DNA from: Ignavibacteria bacterium
GTDB lineage: Bacteria > Bacteroidota > Ignavibacteria > Tepidaquicellales > OLB5
NCBI GenBank assembly: GCA_020852705.1
Contig: JADZAP010000008.1
Coordinates: 1 to 50,612 of the forward strand
Direction: 5' to 3'
Length of the DNA stretch: 50,612 nt
The notes under the pieces are model-generated. The model was not told where the DNA came from and did no database searches. It saw nothing but the letters and a program-made list of their open reading frames with translations. The position numbers were made by a program, and so were the translations under genes. Below, piece after piece: positions 39,412 to 46,392 of this stretch; the stretch's first letter is position 1; the number at the start of each line of letters is the position of its first letter.

Positions 39412-39798
39412 TTAATGAGATGCATTTCTTACTTTTGCCTCAATTACCGATGGCAGCTGAGTTTTTATTGAGCTTTTTGCAATAAAACCATCAGCATTAA
39501 ATTCATCAGCTAATTCTTTATATACACTATCTTCATATAATGTAAGAATTATTACAGATTTTTCTGGCCATTTCTCTTTGATAGTTTTTGTTGCATCTAA
39601 ACCTGATTGGTTTGGCATGCTTAAATCCATTAATACCAAGTCAGGATTAAGTGATTCAGTCTTTTCTATTACATCAACCCCGTCAATTGCTTCACCTACA
39701 ATTTCTACTCCGGGCATTGCTTTTACGTACTGATTAAGCAGCTGACGAAAATTATCATTATCATCACAAAGAAGTATTTTTACGTTTCTGTTATCCAT
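39412..39798 (-). CDS. Single-domain response regulator
   Basis: A 128-residue CheY-like receiver domain with no output domain. Acidic pocket Asp12/Asp13, phosphorylation site Asp58 (LVLMDLSMP), Thr86 and Lys108 are all present, so phosphotransfer should work. It is about 45% alike to the neighbouring 39819 receiver by eye (PGVEIVGEAIDG vs PGVELVGEAVDG), so they look like tandem copies. Last in the cluster; the output is probably by binding a partner protein. A strong terminator follows. Confidence 0.92.
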   Translation of the reverse strand: MDNRNVKILLCDDNDNFRQLLNQYVKAMPGVEIVGEAIDGVDVIEKTESLNPDLVLMDLSMPNQSGLDATKTIKEKWPEKSVIILTLYEDSVYKELADEFNADGFIAKSSIKTQLPSVIEAKVRNASH

Positions 39799-39818
39799 TA
39801 ATATTGTATATTATAATT

Positions 39819-40226
39819 TTATCCGTTTTTTGATGCAAGCTTCTGTTGTGTTGCCTGTATTACTTCTAGAAGTTCTTTATGAATATCGTCGGAATTTTTC
39901 CCAATATATTTATCAACTCTGTAAACTTCTGCCAGTTTTCTGTATGACTGACCTTCATTTATTGATATCATAACAACTGTAACATCCGGGAATTTATCTT
40001 TTATAGCACTTAAAGCTTCTATACCGGATTTTTTCGGCATTATAATATCAAGAATAATCAGATCCGGATATGTTGCTTCAGCTTTTTTGATAGCATCTTC
40101 ACCGTCAACAGCCTCCCCAACTAACTCTACACCGGGAATTGAGCGTACATATTGTGCAAGTGCACTTAGGAAATCCGGATTATTATCTGCTATTAATACT
40201 CTTACTACTGGTACTTGAGCATTCAT
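39819..40226 (-). CDS. Single-domain response regulator
   Basis: A 135-residue receiver-only protein. The acidic residue of the first box is Asp14 (LIADNNPD); phosphoacceptor Asp60 (LIILDIIMP), Ser88 at the Thr/Ser switch position and Lys110 are conserved. Like its neighbour it lacks a DNA-binding or enzymatic output. It lies 20 nt before the 39798 gene and 45 nt after the LuxR-type regulator. The similarity of the two receivers, including the PGVE(L/I)VGEA(V/I)DG segment, suggests duplication. Confidence 0.92.
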   Translation of the reverse strand: MNAQVPVVRVLIADNNPDFLSALAQYVRSIPGVELVGEAVDGEDAIKKAEATYPDLIILDIIMPKKSGIEALSAIKDKFPDVTVVMISINEGQSYRKLAEVYRVDKYIGKNSDDIHKELLEVIQATQQKLASKNG

Positions 40227-40271
40227 TTTAACAGCCCTTTCTTTAACTTTTAAACCTGAATTTAAAGCTTT

Positions 40272-40934
40272 TTAATTTAGTGATATTAAACCTTTTTCAA
40301 TTGCATATCTTACCAATCCTGCTGTGTTTTTTATTGATAATTTATGCATTATATTTTTCCTGTGTGTATCCACAGTATTATAGCTGATGTAAAGTATATT
40401 GGCTATTTCCTGGTTAGAATATCCCGAGGCAATAAGCTTCAATATTTCAATCTCACGCTTTGTAAGCGGTACTTCTTTAAATCCATCATTTTTTTCTGTC
40501 TCTTTGGCAGTTCTAATGTAATTATCTATTATCAGTTTAGAAATATCTTTACTGAAGAAGTTGTCTCCTGATGCTACGGTTTTTACCGCATCCAGCAATT
40601 CTTCTTTATCTGTATTTTTCAGAATAAATCCTTTAGCTCCGGAACGAATTATTTGGTTTAGATATTCCTGATTATCGTGCATTGTTAAGATTAAAATACG
40701 TGCATCAGGATCTTTTTCTTTAATAACTCTGGTTGCTTCTATTCCGTTCATTCCCGGCATTGATATATCCATTATAACTAAGTCTGGTTTTAAAGAAGAA
40801 TACATTTTAACTGCATCTTCACCGTTTCCGGCTTCGCCAGCTATTGAAATGCTTTCAAGGCTGGTAAGTATATTCCTTAAACCGTCTCTCACAACTTCGT
40901 GGTCATCAACAATTAAAATTTTAGTGGTTTTCAT
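40272..40934 (-). CDS. NarL/LuxR-family response regulator
   Basis: A 220-residue transcription factor with a receiver domain (1-125; Asp10, Asp11, phosphoacceptor Asp56 in LVIMDISMP, Thr near 83, Lys near 105) and a C-terminal LuxR-type helix-turn-helix (about 155-215; PLTKREIEILKLIASGYSN). It is the only DNA-binding member of this cluster. The likely kinase partner is the HisKA_3 hybrid encoded 44 nt upstream, since HisKA_3 kinases typically pair with NarL regulators. Confidence 0.95.
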   Translation of the reverse strand: MKTTKILIVDDHEVVRDGLRNILTSLESISIAGEAGNGEDAVKMYSSLKPDLVIMDISMPGMNGIEATRVIKEKDPDARILILTMHDNQEYLNQIIRSGAKGFILKNTDKEELLDAVKTVASGDNFFSKDISKLIIDNYIRTAKETEKNDGFKEVPLTKREIEILKLIASGYSNQEIANILYISYNTVDTHRKNIMHKLSIKNTAGLVRYAIEKGLISLN

Positions 40935-40978
40935 TTTAAACTGTATTTATCTTATTGATATTTTTTTTATTGCTAAAT

Positions 40979-42058
40979 TTAAATATGATTATTACTGAAA
41001 AAATCTAAGTTTATTTCTAAAAGAAGCTCTGTTCCGTTTCCCGGACTGGATGTTATCTCTACTTTGCCTCCAACAAGTTCTGCTCTTTCTTTCATGTTAA
41101 GAAGGCCAAATCCGCCTCCGGCTTTCTTTGTCTTTGTGATATTTTCTGTATCAAATCCCTTGCCGTTATCTTTTACCCTTACAAATACTTGCTTTTCATT
41201 TCTTTGAAGATCTAAAGATACTTCTGTTGCTTCGGCATATTTACTGATATTGTTAAATGATTCCTGAATAATCCTGTAAATTGCTATTTCTATTTTCGGG
41301 TCTATGCGCTCAAGAGTAGGGGATACTTGAAATTTTACTTTTATACCCGTGATCTTAGAAAATTCCTGACATAAAATTCTTAATGCCGGTATTAATCCAA
41401 AATCGTCTAATGTCGTGGGCCTAAGGTCATGTGCAATCCTTCTTGCTTCAACTATTGCTTTACTGATAATAGAATCTACCTGTTTAATTATTTCATTGCT
41501 GCGCTCTTTATTATTTGAATTTGCAATATCTATCATTCCAAAATTTAGTTTTGCAGCACTTAAAAGCTGTCCCAAACCGTCATGTAGTTCCCGGGATATT
41601 CTCCTTCTCTCATTTTCCTGTGCTTCAATAATTGAAAGTGCCCTTATACGCTGCTCTAACAGCTTTTGATGATCTTCTTCGGCACGCTTTCTTTCTATTG
41701 AATAGCGGATTGATCTTAATAGAAGTTCACTTTCAACTTTGTCTTTTACCAGGTAGTCTTGAGCTCCCATTTTAACTGCATTTATTGCAGTTGTTTCATC
41801 ATTTAATCCCGTTAATATTATTATAGGTATGTTTGGGATTATACTGAATATCTGCTCAACACTTGCTAAACCTTCACTATCTGGAAGGTTCAAATCAAGC
41901 AAAACTACATCAATAAATTCATTCTCAAGTATTTCTAAACCTTTTTGAAGTCTGTCTGCTAATTGAAAGCTATATTCAATATTCTTCAGATCTGAGAGGT
42001 ATTCTTTAATTAACCTTGCATCGCCCGGGTTATCCTCTATTAATAAGATCTTTATCAA
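40979..42058 (-). CDS. Receiver plus HisKA_3 histidine kinase hybrid
   Basis: A 359-residue soluble protein: N-terminal receiver (Asp9 region, phosphoacceptor Asp55 in VVLLDLNLP), linker helix, a HisKA_3 dimerisation domain with RRRISRELHDGLGQ (His159) and a C-terminal HATPase_c domain (DNGKGFD, GGGFGLLNMKERA). With no membrane helix and the receiver first, it is likely regulated by phosphorylation from another kinase. The gene starts with TTG one nucleotide after the stop of the HK gene at 42060-42818. Probable cognate output is the NarL-type regulator. Confidence 0.94.
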   Translation of the reverse strand: MIKILLIEDNPGDARLIKEYLSDLKNIEYSFQLADRLQKGLEILENEFIDVVLLDLNLPDSEGLASVEQIFSIIPNIPIIILTGLNDETTAINAVKMGAQDYLVKDKVESELLLRSIRYSIERKRAEEDHQKLLEQRIRALSIIEAQENERRRISRELHDGLGQLLSAAKLNFGMIDIANSNNKERSNEIIKQVDSIISKAIVEARRIAHDLRPTTLDDFGLIPALRILCQEFSKITGIKVKFQVSPTLERIDPKIEIAIYRIIQESFNNISKYAEATEVSLDLQRNEKQVFVRVKDNGKGFDTENITKTKKAGGGFGLLNMKERAELVGGKVEITSSPGNGTELLLEINLDFFSNNHI

Positions 42059-42059
42059 A

Positions 42060-42818
42060 TTATTCTCTAATTTCTTTTTTAATTGTTACAAGGAACCTTG
42101 AACCTTTATTTAGCTCTGAATCAATTCTTATATCACCGTTATGTATACTTGCTATTTTCTCACACACTGCAAGCCCTATTCCCGAGCCCGGGTAATCTGT
42201 ATGTCTGTGCAGTTTCTGAAAAATACCAAAAATCTTACCATGATATTCTTTTTCTATTCCAATGCCGTTATCGCTGATCTTAAGTTCCCATTTGTCATTA
42301 AGCTCTGTAACATTTATTTCCACTTTTGGATTTGAATTGCTATTAAACTTTATGGAATTATCTGTTAAACTATAAAGCAGTTTAATTAAAAGCTGTTTAT
42401 CTGCATTTAATCCCTCAGTACTGCCTTGTTTTAATGTTAAGCAATTTTCCATTCCAGGATGTTTTTCTGCAATCTGTTTTTTCACTCTCTCAAATATTTC
42501 TTGCATTAAAAGATCTTCTCTCTTGAAATTCAGCCGTCCAATCCTTGAATAAGTTAAAAGATCATCCATCATTTTCTTTAGTCTGTTCGACCCGTCAACC
42601 GCAAAGGAAATATATTCTTTTGCATTTTCATCAAGTTTATCACTGTACCGTTTGTTAAGTAACTGTACATAGCTTGTTATCATTCTTAACGGTTCCTGTA
42701 AATCGTGCGATATTATATAAGTAAGCTCATCTAAATCAATTTGCTTTACATTCACTGTTTCTGAATCTGTGCTCAAACCTCTTTGACTGCCTGTATCCTT
42801 TCCTGATTCTCCATTCAA
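42060..42818 (-). CDS. Soluble HisKA histidine kinase
   Basis: A 252-residue kinase with only a short polar N-terminus (about 1-28), a HisKA domain (SHDLQEPLRMITSYVQ, His38) and HATPase_c with boxes NSIKFN (N), DNGIGIEKEY (G1) and GSGIGLAVCEK (G2). It has no sensor domain and no membrane helix, resembling the kinase cores of phytochrome-like or PAS kinases. The start is TTG at 42818, 83 nt after the motor operon, from which it is separated by a hairpin. It probably receives its signal from a partner protein. Confidence 0.9.
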   Translation of the reverse strand: MNGESGKDTGSQRGLSTDSETVNVKQIDLDELTYIISHDLQEPLRMITSYVQLLNKRYSDKLDENAKEYISFAVDGSNRLKKMMDDLLTYSRIGRLNFKREDLLMQEIFERVKKQIAEKHPGMENCLTLKQGSTEGLNADKQLLIKLLYSLTDNSIKFNSNSNPKVEINVTELNDKWELKISDNGIGIEKEYHGKIFGIFQKLHRHTDYPGSGIGLAVCEKIASIHNGDIRIDSELNKGSRFLVTIKKEIRE

Positions 42819-42901: not shown

Positions 42902-44224
42902 TTATTTCTTTTCTCTTTCGTCAAAGAAGTCACCAAGTTTAAATCTGAAATTGACAAAAGCTGAAAGTAATCCAAATCTGTTGTTATCTAATTTAGATAG
43001 TCTGATTGACGGTCCAACTGCAAATGAGTTTAATGCAAAACCTTCTGCAATATTAGATACCATGATCTCAACTAACAGCTGGAAGTTCCTGATCTTTTTT
43101 AATGTTGCATTTACCCTGAAGTCAAATACTGAACCTACTAATCTTGATTCACGGGTGAAAAGACCAATATTCATTTCATTCATATAATATGCCGCATATA
43201 CTTGTGTTCTTGTTGAACCAAACATCCTGAAAGGATATCTGAATTCTGCTATTAGGTTTGAACCTGTTACTAAGTTATTAGGCATCTGCTGTCCTGTTAC
43301 CTTGTTTTGGAAGGTATATAATGGAGGACCGCCTCCGGGAACTACACCGGTTTCTTTTATTTCACTGTATACACCTACTTCAAGAAAGTTACCAAGTGGA
43401 ATTGTGTATGTAAGTTTTATACCTCTTGGGGGCATAAAAATTGCATTATACTGCTTCCATGGTTTATTTTCAGTACTATCTGAACCAAGGTCATGGGTAT
43501 TCAACTCTCTAATGCGAGTAACATAAGATATATTAACACCAAGCATATTAAATCCTGCACTCACTTCATCACTTTCAAATGGACCTGAGTATTTACTGCC
43601 CATACCAAATGTGAAACCAATTGATCTTTTTACTGGAATACCAAGTGCCTCCCAGCCGAATACTGTAAAGTATGGATTGATGTATGCTGTAGTATTTCTT
43701 ATAGCTCTTTCTCTTTTTGGAGGAGCAACAAATTCCTTTATTTTAATTTGTCTTATAACATCTAAAAATACTGATGCATAGTCAAGTTTTTTCTGGTTTA
43801 AATTTTCCTTGTTTGTATTAGCCCAGTTTATTAAACCATCCCGAACCCGCTGAGATAATTGTGACCATGCGTATCTCATTGCACTTGGATCAGATTCATC
43901 GCCAAGTACTACAAATTGGTTCTGTTCATTTGGATCACTTATATTTACGGTAATGGTATAGGACTCCATTTTGGGGTCAATTCCCATATCGTCCTGTGCT
44001 AAAATAAAGATGGAATCATCTTCTGCTCTTGCAAGTATCCTGAAATATTTCCATGTCCTTGGATTATTAGGATCTTCCTGCTGTGCAAAAGAATCCTGTG
44101 TCTGGATAAATAGCGAACATAATAACACTGCTATAAACCCCAGGATACTGAAATTTGCTCTGTTTTTCATTTTTGTGGTGATTTGATTAATATTATTTAA
44201 TTTCATTTTTGTCATTTTTACCAT
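42902..44224 (-). CDS. Predicted outer-membrane protein of the motor-like operon
   Basis: Up to 440 residues. A signal peptide is best explained by a start at Met19 (ATG at 44170): MKNRANFSILGF..., hydrophobic core to about 45, ending SFAQQ. The ATG at 44224 overlaps the upstream gene by 7 nt and would add 18 polar residues. After a soluble N-terminal region (about 50-180) come many amphipathic strands to a terminal FVNFRFKLGDFF, as in a beta-barrel. I recognise no family; it is not alike to GldN/PorN by eye. It probably supplies the outer-membrane part of the system encoded with 44218 and 45163. Confidence 0.7.
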   Translation of the reverse strand: MVKMTKMKLNNINQITTKMKNRANFSILGFIAVLLCSLFIQTQDSFAQQEDPNNPRTWKYFRILARAEDDSIFILAQDDMGIDPKMESYTITVNISDPNEQNQFVVLGDESDPSAMRYAWSQLSQRVRDGLINWANTNKENLNQKKLDYASVFLDVIRQIKIKEFVAPPKRERAIRNTTAYINPYFTVFGWEALGIPVKRSIGFTFGMGSKYSGPFESDEVSAGFNMLGVNISYVTRIRELNTHDLGSDSTENKPWKQYNAIFMPPRGIKLTYTIPLGNFLEVGVYSEIKETGVVPGGGPPLYTFQNKVTGQQMPNNLVTGSNLIAEFRYPFRMFGSTRTQVYAAYYMNEMNIGLFTRESRLVGSVFDFRVNATLKKIRNFQLLVEIMVSNIAEGFALNSFAVGPSIRLSKLDNNRFGLLSAFVNFRFKLGDFFDEREKK

Positions 44225-45132
44225 TCACCGAATATAAAGCTGTTTTGACCGGTGATCTTGTGTCCTGCTATATTATCTGATACCGATACTGTAAATCCTA
44301 CTGAGTATGGCGAATCTTTGCCGTCAGTAAAATTATCAAATGCTGATTTACTGCCAAATGCATTCATTGTTACATCATATATACCCGAACCAACTGTTTT
44401 AACTGATACAGGTCCGTTGAATTTTACATCTAGCTGTCCCGGGAAATCATCCGAGATTGTTACCCTGTAACAAACACTGCTTTGCAGTTGTGTTACACGT
44501 GTTTCTTCTCCCATAGATGAGACCCTCTGCATGCTGATCTTTGGTTTTTCGTTTGGTTTTAATTCAACTGTCTTTGTAGAGCTTCCTACTTTAATTGTAA
44601 CTGTACTCTGCCCGCCTGTTTGAAATGTCTTTGAGCTTTTTGGCGGTATGGTTGTTATACCTTCTACCTCTAATGGTGTATCATAAGGATTGTTCAGTGT
44701 ATTATTGGTGTATTGTGTAAGCTGGATATTCCCAATCCTGATTTCCTGCATTTCACCCGGATCCTTTTTTAATTCTTCTTCCTTCTTTACTTCAGGATTC
44801 TGCTGGATCTGTGGATTATTGGTTGTAAATGTATTAATTGGTGATGAAGAAATCTGTACATTCTGCGGACTTACAACAAGCTGCTTAATCTTGTCGTCCA
44901 TCTTCTCTAAATCAGATTTCTTTATTATTACATATAAGTTTGTATCAACAATTATGGATTTTTTTATTATCTCATGCAATTTCAGCAATGAGTCAATCGA
45001 AATTGTAGGTTTTCCGTCATCTTCCACAACCTGAGTTAAATCAAGATTTGCTCCTTTAATTGCAACTACACATACTACAAATATGTACAGTGCCTGATAA
45101 ATTATGAATTTTACGTCTCGTTGTTTTTTCAT
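44218..45132 (-). CDS. Single-TM periplasmic protein, GldM/ExbD-like layout
   Basis: A 304-residue protein: short basic N-terminus (MKKQRDVK), one membrane helix (about 9-27, FIIYQALYIFVVCVVAI), a periplasmic Gln/Asn/Lys-rich linker (about 90-130) and a beta-rich C-terminal region with Ig-like repeats. The layout is that of GldM, MotB or ExbD partners; Arg5 just before the helix parallels the conserved Arg in GldM, but there is no Asp in the helix as in MotB/ExbD. No peptidoglycan-binding OmpA domain is seen. AGGAG lies 11 nt before the ATG; it follows the 45163 gene by 30 nt and overlaps the OMP gene. Confidence 0.7.
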   Translation of the reverse strand: MKKQRDVKFIIYQALYIFVVCVVAIKGANLDLTQVVEDDGKPTISIDSLLKLHEIIKKSIIVDTNLYVIIKKSDLEKMDDKIKQLVVSPQNVQISSSPINTFTTNNPQIQQNPEVKKEEELKKDPGEMQEIRIGNIQLTQYTNNTLNNPYDTPLEVEGITTIPPKSSKTFQTGGQSTVTIKVGSSTKTVELKPNEKPKISMQRVSSMGEETRVTQLQSSVCYRVTISDDFPGQLDVKFNGPVSVKTVGSGIYDVTMNAFGSKSAFDNFTDGKDSPYSVGFTVSVSDNIAGHKITGQNSFIFGEW

Positions 45133-45162
45133 TTAAGTTGTTCTCCTAATTCAGTCTGTTAT

Positions 45163-46392
45163 TTACTGTGCTCTTTTTCCTGCTAAAAATGCAAGGTTAT
45201 CTAAGCCTTTTACAGCTTGAGCATCCTTAAATGAATTTACTGTTTCAGTTAACATATGTGAAGTTATCTGTAATTCTTTCAAAAGTTTATCATCCGGATA
45301 TTTAATGTTATCCATTTCTTTCATTAAATTACGCATAGCTTCTAGATTTTTCTTCATAGCTTCACTGTATTCAGCAGTTTGTGATGCTGCTGCTAGTGCT
45401 GTTGTTAATGACTGGCTTGTATTTTGTAATTCTCTTAATAATTCTGAATCATGTACATTTGTTTTACTCATTTCAGAAATAGCATTCTTCATTATAACCA
45501 CATTCTTTGATATATTTTCGCCAAACTCTGCTGCTTTTTTCAATGAATTTGAGATCTCTGCTGCTTCTTCTTTTGAGAATTTCTCATATCCGGGACCGCC
45601 TGCTGTCATGCTTGCACCTTTAAAACCGTCATGAAGCTGCTGTAATATTGCTCTCTGATGTATATCTTCTCTTTCTGTAAAATATTCCTTTTCAAGATCG
45701 TTTAACTCTTCACGCAATTCTGCAAATTTTAATCCCTGTGCATCAAACACCGTTTCAAATAATTTTGCTACTGCAAGTATTACTATTGATTTAATTTCAA
45801 ATGGTACTGAAAATCCTAAAAATACTATTGGTCCTTCTTTTATTGAAATCAATAGAATAGCTGCACCAAGAAGCGGCAAAGCGGTACCAACACCATCAAC
45901 AATTGTAGAGTATCTGTTGGTTATCCTTTCAATTATTTCCTGTGAACAGCCTTTAGCCGATACTTCTCTCATTAATTTTCTGTATGAAAGTTCGGCAAGT
46001 AAAATAAATAGAGCATAAACTATAAACGGCATCCACCACAATGAAACCGGCTCTACACCTTTATTTAAAGTAACACCTCCCGGAAATACTGTATTGGCTA
46101 GTGTCTGTGCTATCTTTCCTAAAAATGGAACATTAGATACATCTATGAATACAGAAAGAAGTAATGCAATCAATGATGGTATTGCAGGAGCAAATCTCCC
46201 AGAGACACCTTCAGACTGAATTTTGTTAACCCCTCTGTTTATTACATATTGTTTTAATTCATGATATTCGGTAGATTGTCTTAAAAGTTCCTGTACCCGC
46301 TTATCAAGATTATCTTTTTTGAAATTTTGACCGAAAAGTTGTGAAGATCCCATGTTTTGTGCCGTTTTTACATTAGCAGAAGTTTGATCCAT
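45163..46392 (-). CDS. Four-TM inner-membrane protein with coiled-coil tail, MotA/GldL-like
   Basis: A 409-residue protein with four predicted helices: TM1 about 66-84, TM2 118-136, TM3 166-184 and TM4 199-217. TM3 starts with VGTALPLLG, alike to the G-T/P signature in MotA/TolQ/ExbB helices, and TM4 has a buried acid (Glu213, KLFETVF), as in GldL. A cytoplasmic tail of about 190 residues is helical, with two repeats of MKKNLEAMRNLMKE-type coiled coil. An N-terminal 60 residues are cytoplasmic. It heads the operon with 44218 and 42902; GGAG lies 12 nt before the ATG. Assignment as an ion-channel stator is inference. Confidence 0.65.
   Translation of the reverse strand: MDQTSANVKTAQNMGSSQLFGQNFKKDNLDKRVQELLRQSTEYHELKQYVINRGVNKIQSEGVSGRFAPAIPSLIALLLSVFIDVSNVPFLGKIAQTLANTVFPGGVTLNKGVEPVSLWWMPFIVYALFILLAELSYRKLMREVSAKGCSQEIIERITNRYSTIVDGVGTALPLLGAAILLISIKEGPIVFLGFSVPFEIKSIVILAVAKLFETVFDAQGLKFAELREELNDLEKEYFTEREDIHQRAILQQLHDGFKGASMTAGGPGYEKFSKEEAAEISNSLKKAAEFGENISKNVVIMKNAISEMSKTNVHDSELLRELQNTSQSLTTALAAASQTAEYSEAMKKNLEAMRNLMKEMDNIKYPDDKLLKELQITSHMLTETVNSFKDAQAVKGLDNLAFLAGKRAQ

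Follow-up and report, generated by a model that had tools for sequence, protein, structure and literature searches.

Ion-driven motors of the bacterial envelope that pair a polytopic inner-membrane protein with a bitopic partner include MotAB, ExbBD and TolQR, as well as GldLM/PorLM, the motor for gliding and for the type IX secretion system (T9SS) of the Bacteroidota. To our knowledge, few ion-driven motors that do work at the outer membrane have been described. In the MotB- and ExbD-type partners, the single helix contains an Asp. In GldL, Glu49 of the second transmembrane helix is needed for both secretion and gliding, and Glu59 is needed for gliding only (PMC8986121). The subject here is a set of three genes, P1, P2 and P3, found in the same phylum on contig JADZAP010000008.1 of an Ignavibacteria bacterium (assembly GCA_020852705.1), where the window is the whole stretch of 50,612 nucleotides that was analysed. 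A first-pass annotation of this DNA read the trio as a divergent energy-transducing machine, possibly the GldLM equivalent that powers type IX secretion. Judged from its sequences, the trio is a conserved, unannotated envelope-spanning gene set outside the described protein families, and it may represent a hitherto undescribed relative of the machines behind flagellar motility, iron uptake and gliding.

The ORF (open reading frame) list of the window places P1 at 45163..46392, P2 at 44218..45132 and P3 at 42902..44224; these genes, and all other features given here for the window, are on the minus strand. P1 (409 residues) is a putative stator or ring subunit. Hydropathy bears out the four transmembrane (TM) segments with which it was first credited, as hydrophobic peaks fall at residues 67–85, 115–133, 164–182 and 189–207, and the loop charges fit an N-in/C-in topology. 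The TM3-TM4 hairpin (residues 164–212; 45757..45903) is the most conserved region in the family alignment and contains Asp166, a TM3 that is G-T/P-containing as first described, with the motif G-T-A-L-P-L-(L/I)-G-A-A, and the TM4 motif PFE199IK201. Among 15 diverse P1 proteins, the invariant residues of TM3 include Leu172, Pro173, Gly176, Ala177 and Ala178, while Pro197, Phe198, Glu199 and Lys201 are invariant in TM4 (15/15). Glu199 (codon 45796..45798) is the best candidate for an ion-binding acid. Glu213 (codon 45754..45756), originally singled out as the buried acid of TM4, is ruled out as the key residue, since this position is Glu in only 12 of the 15 proteins (Gly in two, Gln in one). 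Residues 223–409 (45166..45726) form the cytoplasmic helical tail, initially described as a coiled coil of 190 residues; its length is variable in the family, and almost nothing of it remains in the relatives at loci L140 (P1 of 231 residues) and L148 (158 residues).

P2 (304 residues) has a single hydrophobic peak at residues 7–25, in agreement with the one N-terminal helix expected, followed by a periplasmic part. Alignment of 14 P2 proteins identifies Asp6, Lys8, Phe9, Ile11, Gln13, Leu15, Tyr16, Ile17, Lys26 and Gly27 as invariant, such that an invariant D6-x-K8-F9 motif lies before and at the start of the helix. The Arg reported just ahead of the helix is Arg5, which is present in 13 of the 14 and replaced by Lys in the other, and none of the 14 has an acidic residue within the helix. 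The conserved C-terminal periplasmic domain, P2C, comprises residues 175–304 (44221..44610). In one relative (L050:17119-18075, genome G148), P2 contains one in-frame stop while P1 and P3 are open, reflecting either a sequencing error or a decaying gene. Reduced versions of the locus occur in the sister family f2 (L140:10882-13029, L148:6353-8043, L207:4544-6468 and L213:4587-6512), in which P1 is tailless, one ORF comprising TM3-TM4 only, and P2 is apparently split, its TM part and a secreted part being encoded separately.

The only hydrophobic peak in P3 (440 residues) resembles a signal peptide (residues 23–41), and P3 is a putative outer-membrane barrel on the basis of this signal peptide, the lack of helices and its sequence character. 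Its N-terminal periplasmic domain, P3N, spans about residues 55–165 (43730..44062), and the putative β-barrel part, P3B, lies at 42902..43687. The genes were first described as tight or overlapping. P1 and P2 are indeed separated by only 30 bases, but the overlap of P2 and P3 is probably an annotation effect, because relatives of P3 begin at the residue that matches Met19, making position 44170 the likely true start. No promoter or terminator signal at the trio rises above the shuffled-sequence background.

In its chemistry the trio resembles GldLM more closely than MotAB or ExbBD, because the P2 helix is free of acidic residues and the candidate acid would reside on the polytopic subunit, as in GldL. 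Both gene sets occur in the same phylum with the polytopic gene before the bitopic gene. The last membrane helix of each polytopic subunit contains a Glu that is essential (Glu49 in GldL) or invariant (Glu199 in P1), with a second near its end (Glu59 and, in most P1 proteins, Glu213), and both subunits possess a cytoplasmic helical tail. GldM and P2 each have a basic residue just before a helix that lacks an acid and a C-terminal part that is periplasmic, which in GldM is a shaft of several domains. In contrast to the two TM segments of GldL, however, P1 has four and shows no detectable homology over the whole profile, and P2 is about 300 residues in length whereas GldM is about 510. The trio also lacks gldK and gldN neighbors, has an outer-membrane protein instead, and is distributed independently of the T9SS.

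Like MotAB, ExbBD and TolQR, the trio contains a polytopic and bitopic pair and a Pro-containing TM3 with small residues, and P1 has the four TM segments and N-in/C-in topology of MotA. Unlike these systems, it has no PF01618 match, no Asp in the P2 helix, a short TM2-TM3 loop and no recognised peptidoglycan-binding domain in P2. ZorA of Zorya is likewise a polytopic stator subunit whose cytoplasmic helical tail is long; however, Zorya is ruled out by the PADLOC scan, ZorC/D-type and ZorE neighbors are absent, the partner is coupled to an outer-membrane protein, and the trio is conserved across its whole order, as a housekeeping system would be. The trio is not assigned to GldLM, MotAB/ExbBD, Tol-Pal or Zorya, since defining features of each were looked for and not found.

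The conservation of the trio was probed across the class. All genomes first inspected have the three genes in collinear order; outside the genus, the proteins are 30–45% identical to those of the window and the flanking genes differ. The trio itself is clearly conserved. Of 294 class genomes, 53 contain P1 and 56 contain P3: both are present in 53, P1 alone in none, P3 alone in three and neither in 238. Two of the P3-only genomes are fragmented or incomplete assemblies and the third contains a broken copy. The co-occurrence of P1 and P3 has a Fisher P of 2.6e-55, a value inflated by the relatedness of the genomes. The trio is nearly universal in the order of the window and patchy elsewhere (nine genomes of f13, two of f4 and one of f45). 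P1 and P2 are an obligate gene pair, adjacent in every complete locus read, including those in which P3 lies elsewhere (L215 and L216). Three products in no known family might suggest that unrelated membrane proteins are clustered here by chance or in an ordinary way, but this has next to no probability, being refuted by a gene order kept across several families at 30–40% identity despite differing flanks and by the co-occurrence of P1 and P3.

A link between P2 and P3 emerged when P2C and P3N profiles were run on 3271 ORFs from all collected loci. A 280-residue secreted ORF in L209 consists of P3N (residues 93–160, E 9.6e-8) followed by P2C (residues 161–280, E 1.3e-27), and its gene sits between a shortened P2, containing the TM part only, and P3. 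A second, weaker case is found in L140, in which P2C is clear and P3N appears only on profile iteration. Because both domains form one polypeptide in L209, P2C and P3N probably also interact where they are separate, as in the trio. Outside P3, the P3N domain is found by itself in short lipoprotein-like proteins and terminally in longer secreted ones. Such proteins lacking the barrel (L132:6629-7384, L133:8383-8796, L134:9011-9790, L135:8510-9802, L143:9090-9473 and L218:3708-4700) number several per genome in the order of the window, and one is encoded in the window's own genome (G000:C21, which is L132). Since P3N occurs in these other ORFs, it may function as a docking domain for several clients.

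On balance, the somewhat favored reading is that the trio encodes a clade-specific, GldLM-like ion-driven motor that couples the inner to the outer membrane through docking of P2C on P3N, with P3 as the outer-membrane client. Topology, invariant buried charges, the P1-P2 pairing, the periplasmic partner and the fusion of P2 and P3 domains support an energy-transducing machine, as the first-pass annotation suggested, although no firm homology or structure was obtained. The co-occurrence of P1 and P3, the wall and outer-membrane parts beside the trio in f2 and the GldL-like placement of the acid also speak for the reading. In the proposed mechanism, P1 and P2 would assemble in the inner membrane as a 5:2-type motor, with several P1 copies in a ring around a P2 dimer. 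Inflowing protons would protonate and deprotonate Glu199, which would swap ion pairs with Lys201 and with Arg5/Lys8 of P2, and this exchange would turn or reshape P2. The periplasmic arm of P2 would then reach the outer membrane via P2C and act on P3N to perform work on the P3 barrel, the likeliest uses of which would be outer-membrane export or maintenance of the outer membrane and wall. The P1 tail could serve as a cytoplasmic anchor or control arm. Were this correct, the trio would offer a clean system for studying how motors hand force to the outer membrane, with a built-in partner and a visible coupling domain. A further, rather doubtful proposition is that the trio represents an additional lineage of 5:2-type motors in Ignavibacteria that has its own outer-membrane barrel and a separable P3N domain plugging several clients onto one P2C shaft.

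Several results weigh against the motor reading. P1, P2 and P3 have no sequence-family match (searches of Pfam, NCBIfam and PADLOC returned noise only), and profile searches of the PDB gave no motor protein. Pfam scans run on each member of the P1 and P2 families likewise gave no motor protein, and a match of the P2 profile to transferrin-binding protein (E 0.002) was judged to be noise. The expected profile likeness to GldL and GldM failed to appear, as whole-profile hhalign comparisons gave probabilities of 1.3 for P1 with GldL and 0.2 for P2 with GldM; for reference, a true but divergent GldL of a different family in the phylum scored 96. In favor of the motor reading, when the membrane parts alone were compared, the best local alignments paired P1 TM3 with GldL TM1, and the P2 helix with that of GldM, in the expected register. 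These alignments beat about 97.5% of within-segment shuffles of the target columns and about 95% of query shuffles, a weak result (P about 0.025–0.05 each) by which homology of P1-P2 to GldLM is weakly hinted. GldL and ExbB likewise do not find each other by membrane-part comparison. AlphaFold models of P1 alone and of P1 residues 40–260 were unusable, with predicted local distance difference test (pLDDT) scores of 42 and 47, respectively; the latter, the membrane part, was run with 12 close relatives (86–97% identical), and Foldseek with this model gave noise only. In addition, P1 of L140 has no tail, the P1 ORF of L148 as it stands lacks TM1-TM2, P2 is split in several genomes, and the P1:P2 stoichiometry, ion flow and P2 dimerisation are proposals.

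Among the alternatives, a maintenance machine of the Tol-Pal type is unlikely; in this reading the trio would draw the outer membrane towards the wall in organisms without a TolQR set. The only PF01618 (MotA_ExbB) locus in the window's genome is an ordinary ExbB gene with two ExbD genes behind it, and all three genomes tested in the order have a single MotA_ExbB locus, made up of ExbB and two ExbD. Near-universality of the trio in the order fits a maintenance role, as do its flanks in f2, which include genes for a LysM protein, a short coiled-coil lipoprotein and a periplasmic-binding-like protein, all three wall and outer-membrane parts, as well as for a PhoH-like protein. However, genomes of f7 and f9 that lack the trio also have one MotA_ExbB locus, so a missing extra TolQR does not track the trio, and f13 contains several such loci together with the trio. 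Moreover, TolQR homology is absent, and no TolB or Pal partner was identified near the trio.

Also quite unlikely is a role of the trio as the T9SS motor in its carriers, as a displaced or very divergent GldLM in which P3 replaces the GldK/GldN ring as the link to the translocon. This idea draws on the GldM-like chemistry and on a published survey in which the T9SS proteins of Ignavibacterium and Melioribacter are limited to PorV, SprA and Plug (PMC11705866), which would leave the motor missing. SprA is present in the window's genome and its relatives; GldL was not detected there, and TIGR03513 and TIGR03517 found no match in the window's genome, and no separate canonical gldL or gldM was found in it. 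Results from wider searches agree: GldL was above cut-off in none of 30 class genomes (two sub-threshold matches lie outside the membrane part of the model), and GldM was found in 0 of 15 class genomes vs 15 of 46 other genomes of the phylum. A broader profile that includes divergent GldL gave weak matches in the class along the GldL tail region only; those read were rejected as unrelated, two being MlaD-like by eye. However, SprA was found in all 30 class genomes tested, 10 with the trio and 20 without it. Because most of the class lacks the trio (present in only 53 of 294 genomes) yet SprA is found throughout those tested, the T9SS runs without the trio in most of the class. The trio is thus ruled out as a class-wide T9SS motor, and the GldLM equivalence first suggested falls at that level; two sprA loci examined also contain no trio gene. 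The T9SS question is thereby sharpened, as Ignavibacteria have a translocon and no recognisable motor (all 30 genomes have SprA and none a recognisable GldL), and the trio, present in some lineages of the class only, cannot serve as its general motor. A very divergent GldL-GldM pair was encountered in another family of the phylum (L071:1294-3168; TIGR03517 36 bits, below cut-off).

Finally, it is distinctly improbable that the trio is an export apparatus, for example for polysaccharide, in which P1 and P2 form a scaffold or channel without an ion motor and P3 is the outer-membrane exit. Orphan P3 copies lie within surface-polysaccharide clusters in four f13 genomes (L130:9724-10890, L131:8944-11987, L146:9284-10471 and L147:9068-10237), and genes of the SLBB export and GNVR tyrosine-kinase types adjoin them in L130, L146 and L147. 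The trio itself, however, lies outside such loci in this genus, in the sister family and in f13, and a scaffold needs neither an invariant buried Glu/Lys pair nor a short bitopic partner.

In the window, the trio is followed by five two-component genes on the same strand (39412..42818), assigned by Pfam as a histidine kinase (42060-42818), a receiver-histidine kinase (40979-42058), a LuxR-type regulator (40272-40934) and two CheY-like receivers (39819-40226 and 39412-39798). These genes follow the trio in the genus relatives examined, in the same order in L052 and L053, and are not beside it in other families, suggesting possible associated regulators in this genus only. PorX controls PorL, and the two-component genes could control the proposed motor in the same way; in this genus, the CheY-like receivers may act on the P1 tail. 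Scans for P1 and P2 in viral contigs gave no match. In each of three f13 genomes, the surroundings of the trio contain three short GIY-YIG-like ORFs that lie in tandem and are nearly identical (L046:14503-15458, L047:4604-5588 and L048:14525-15382).

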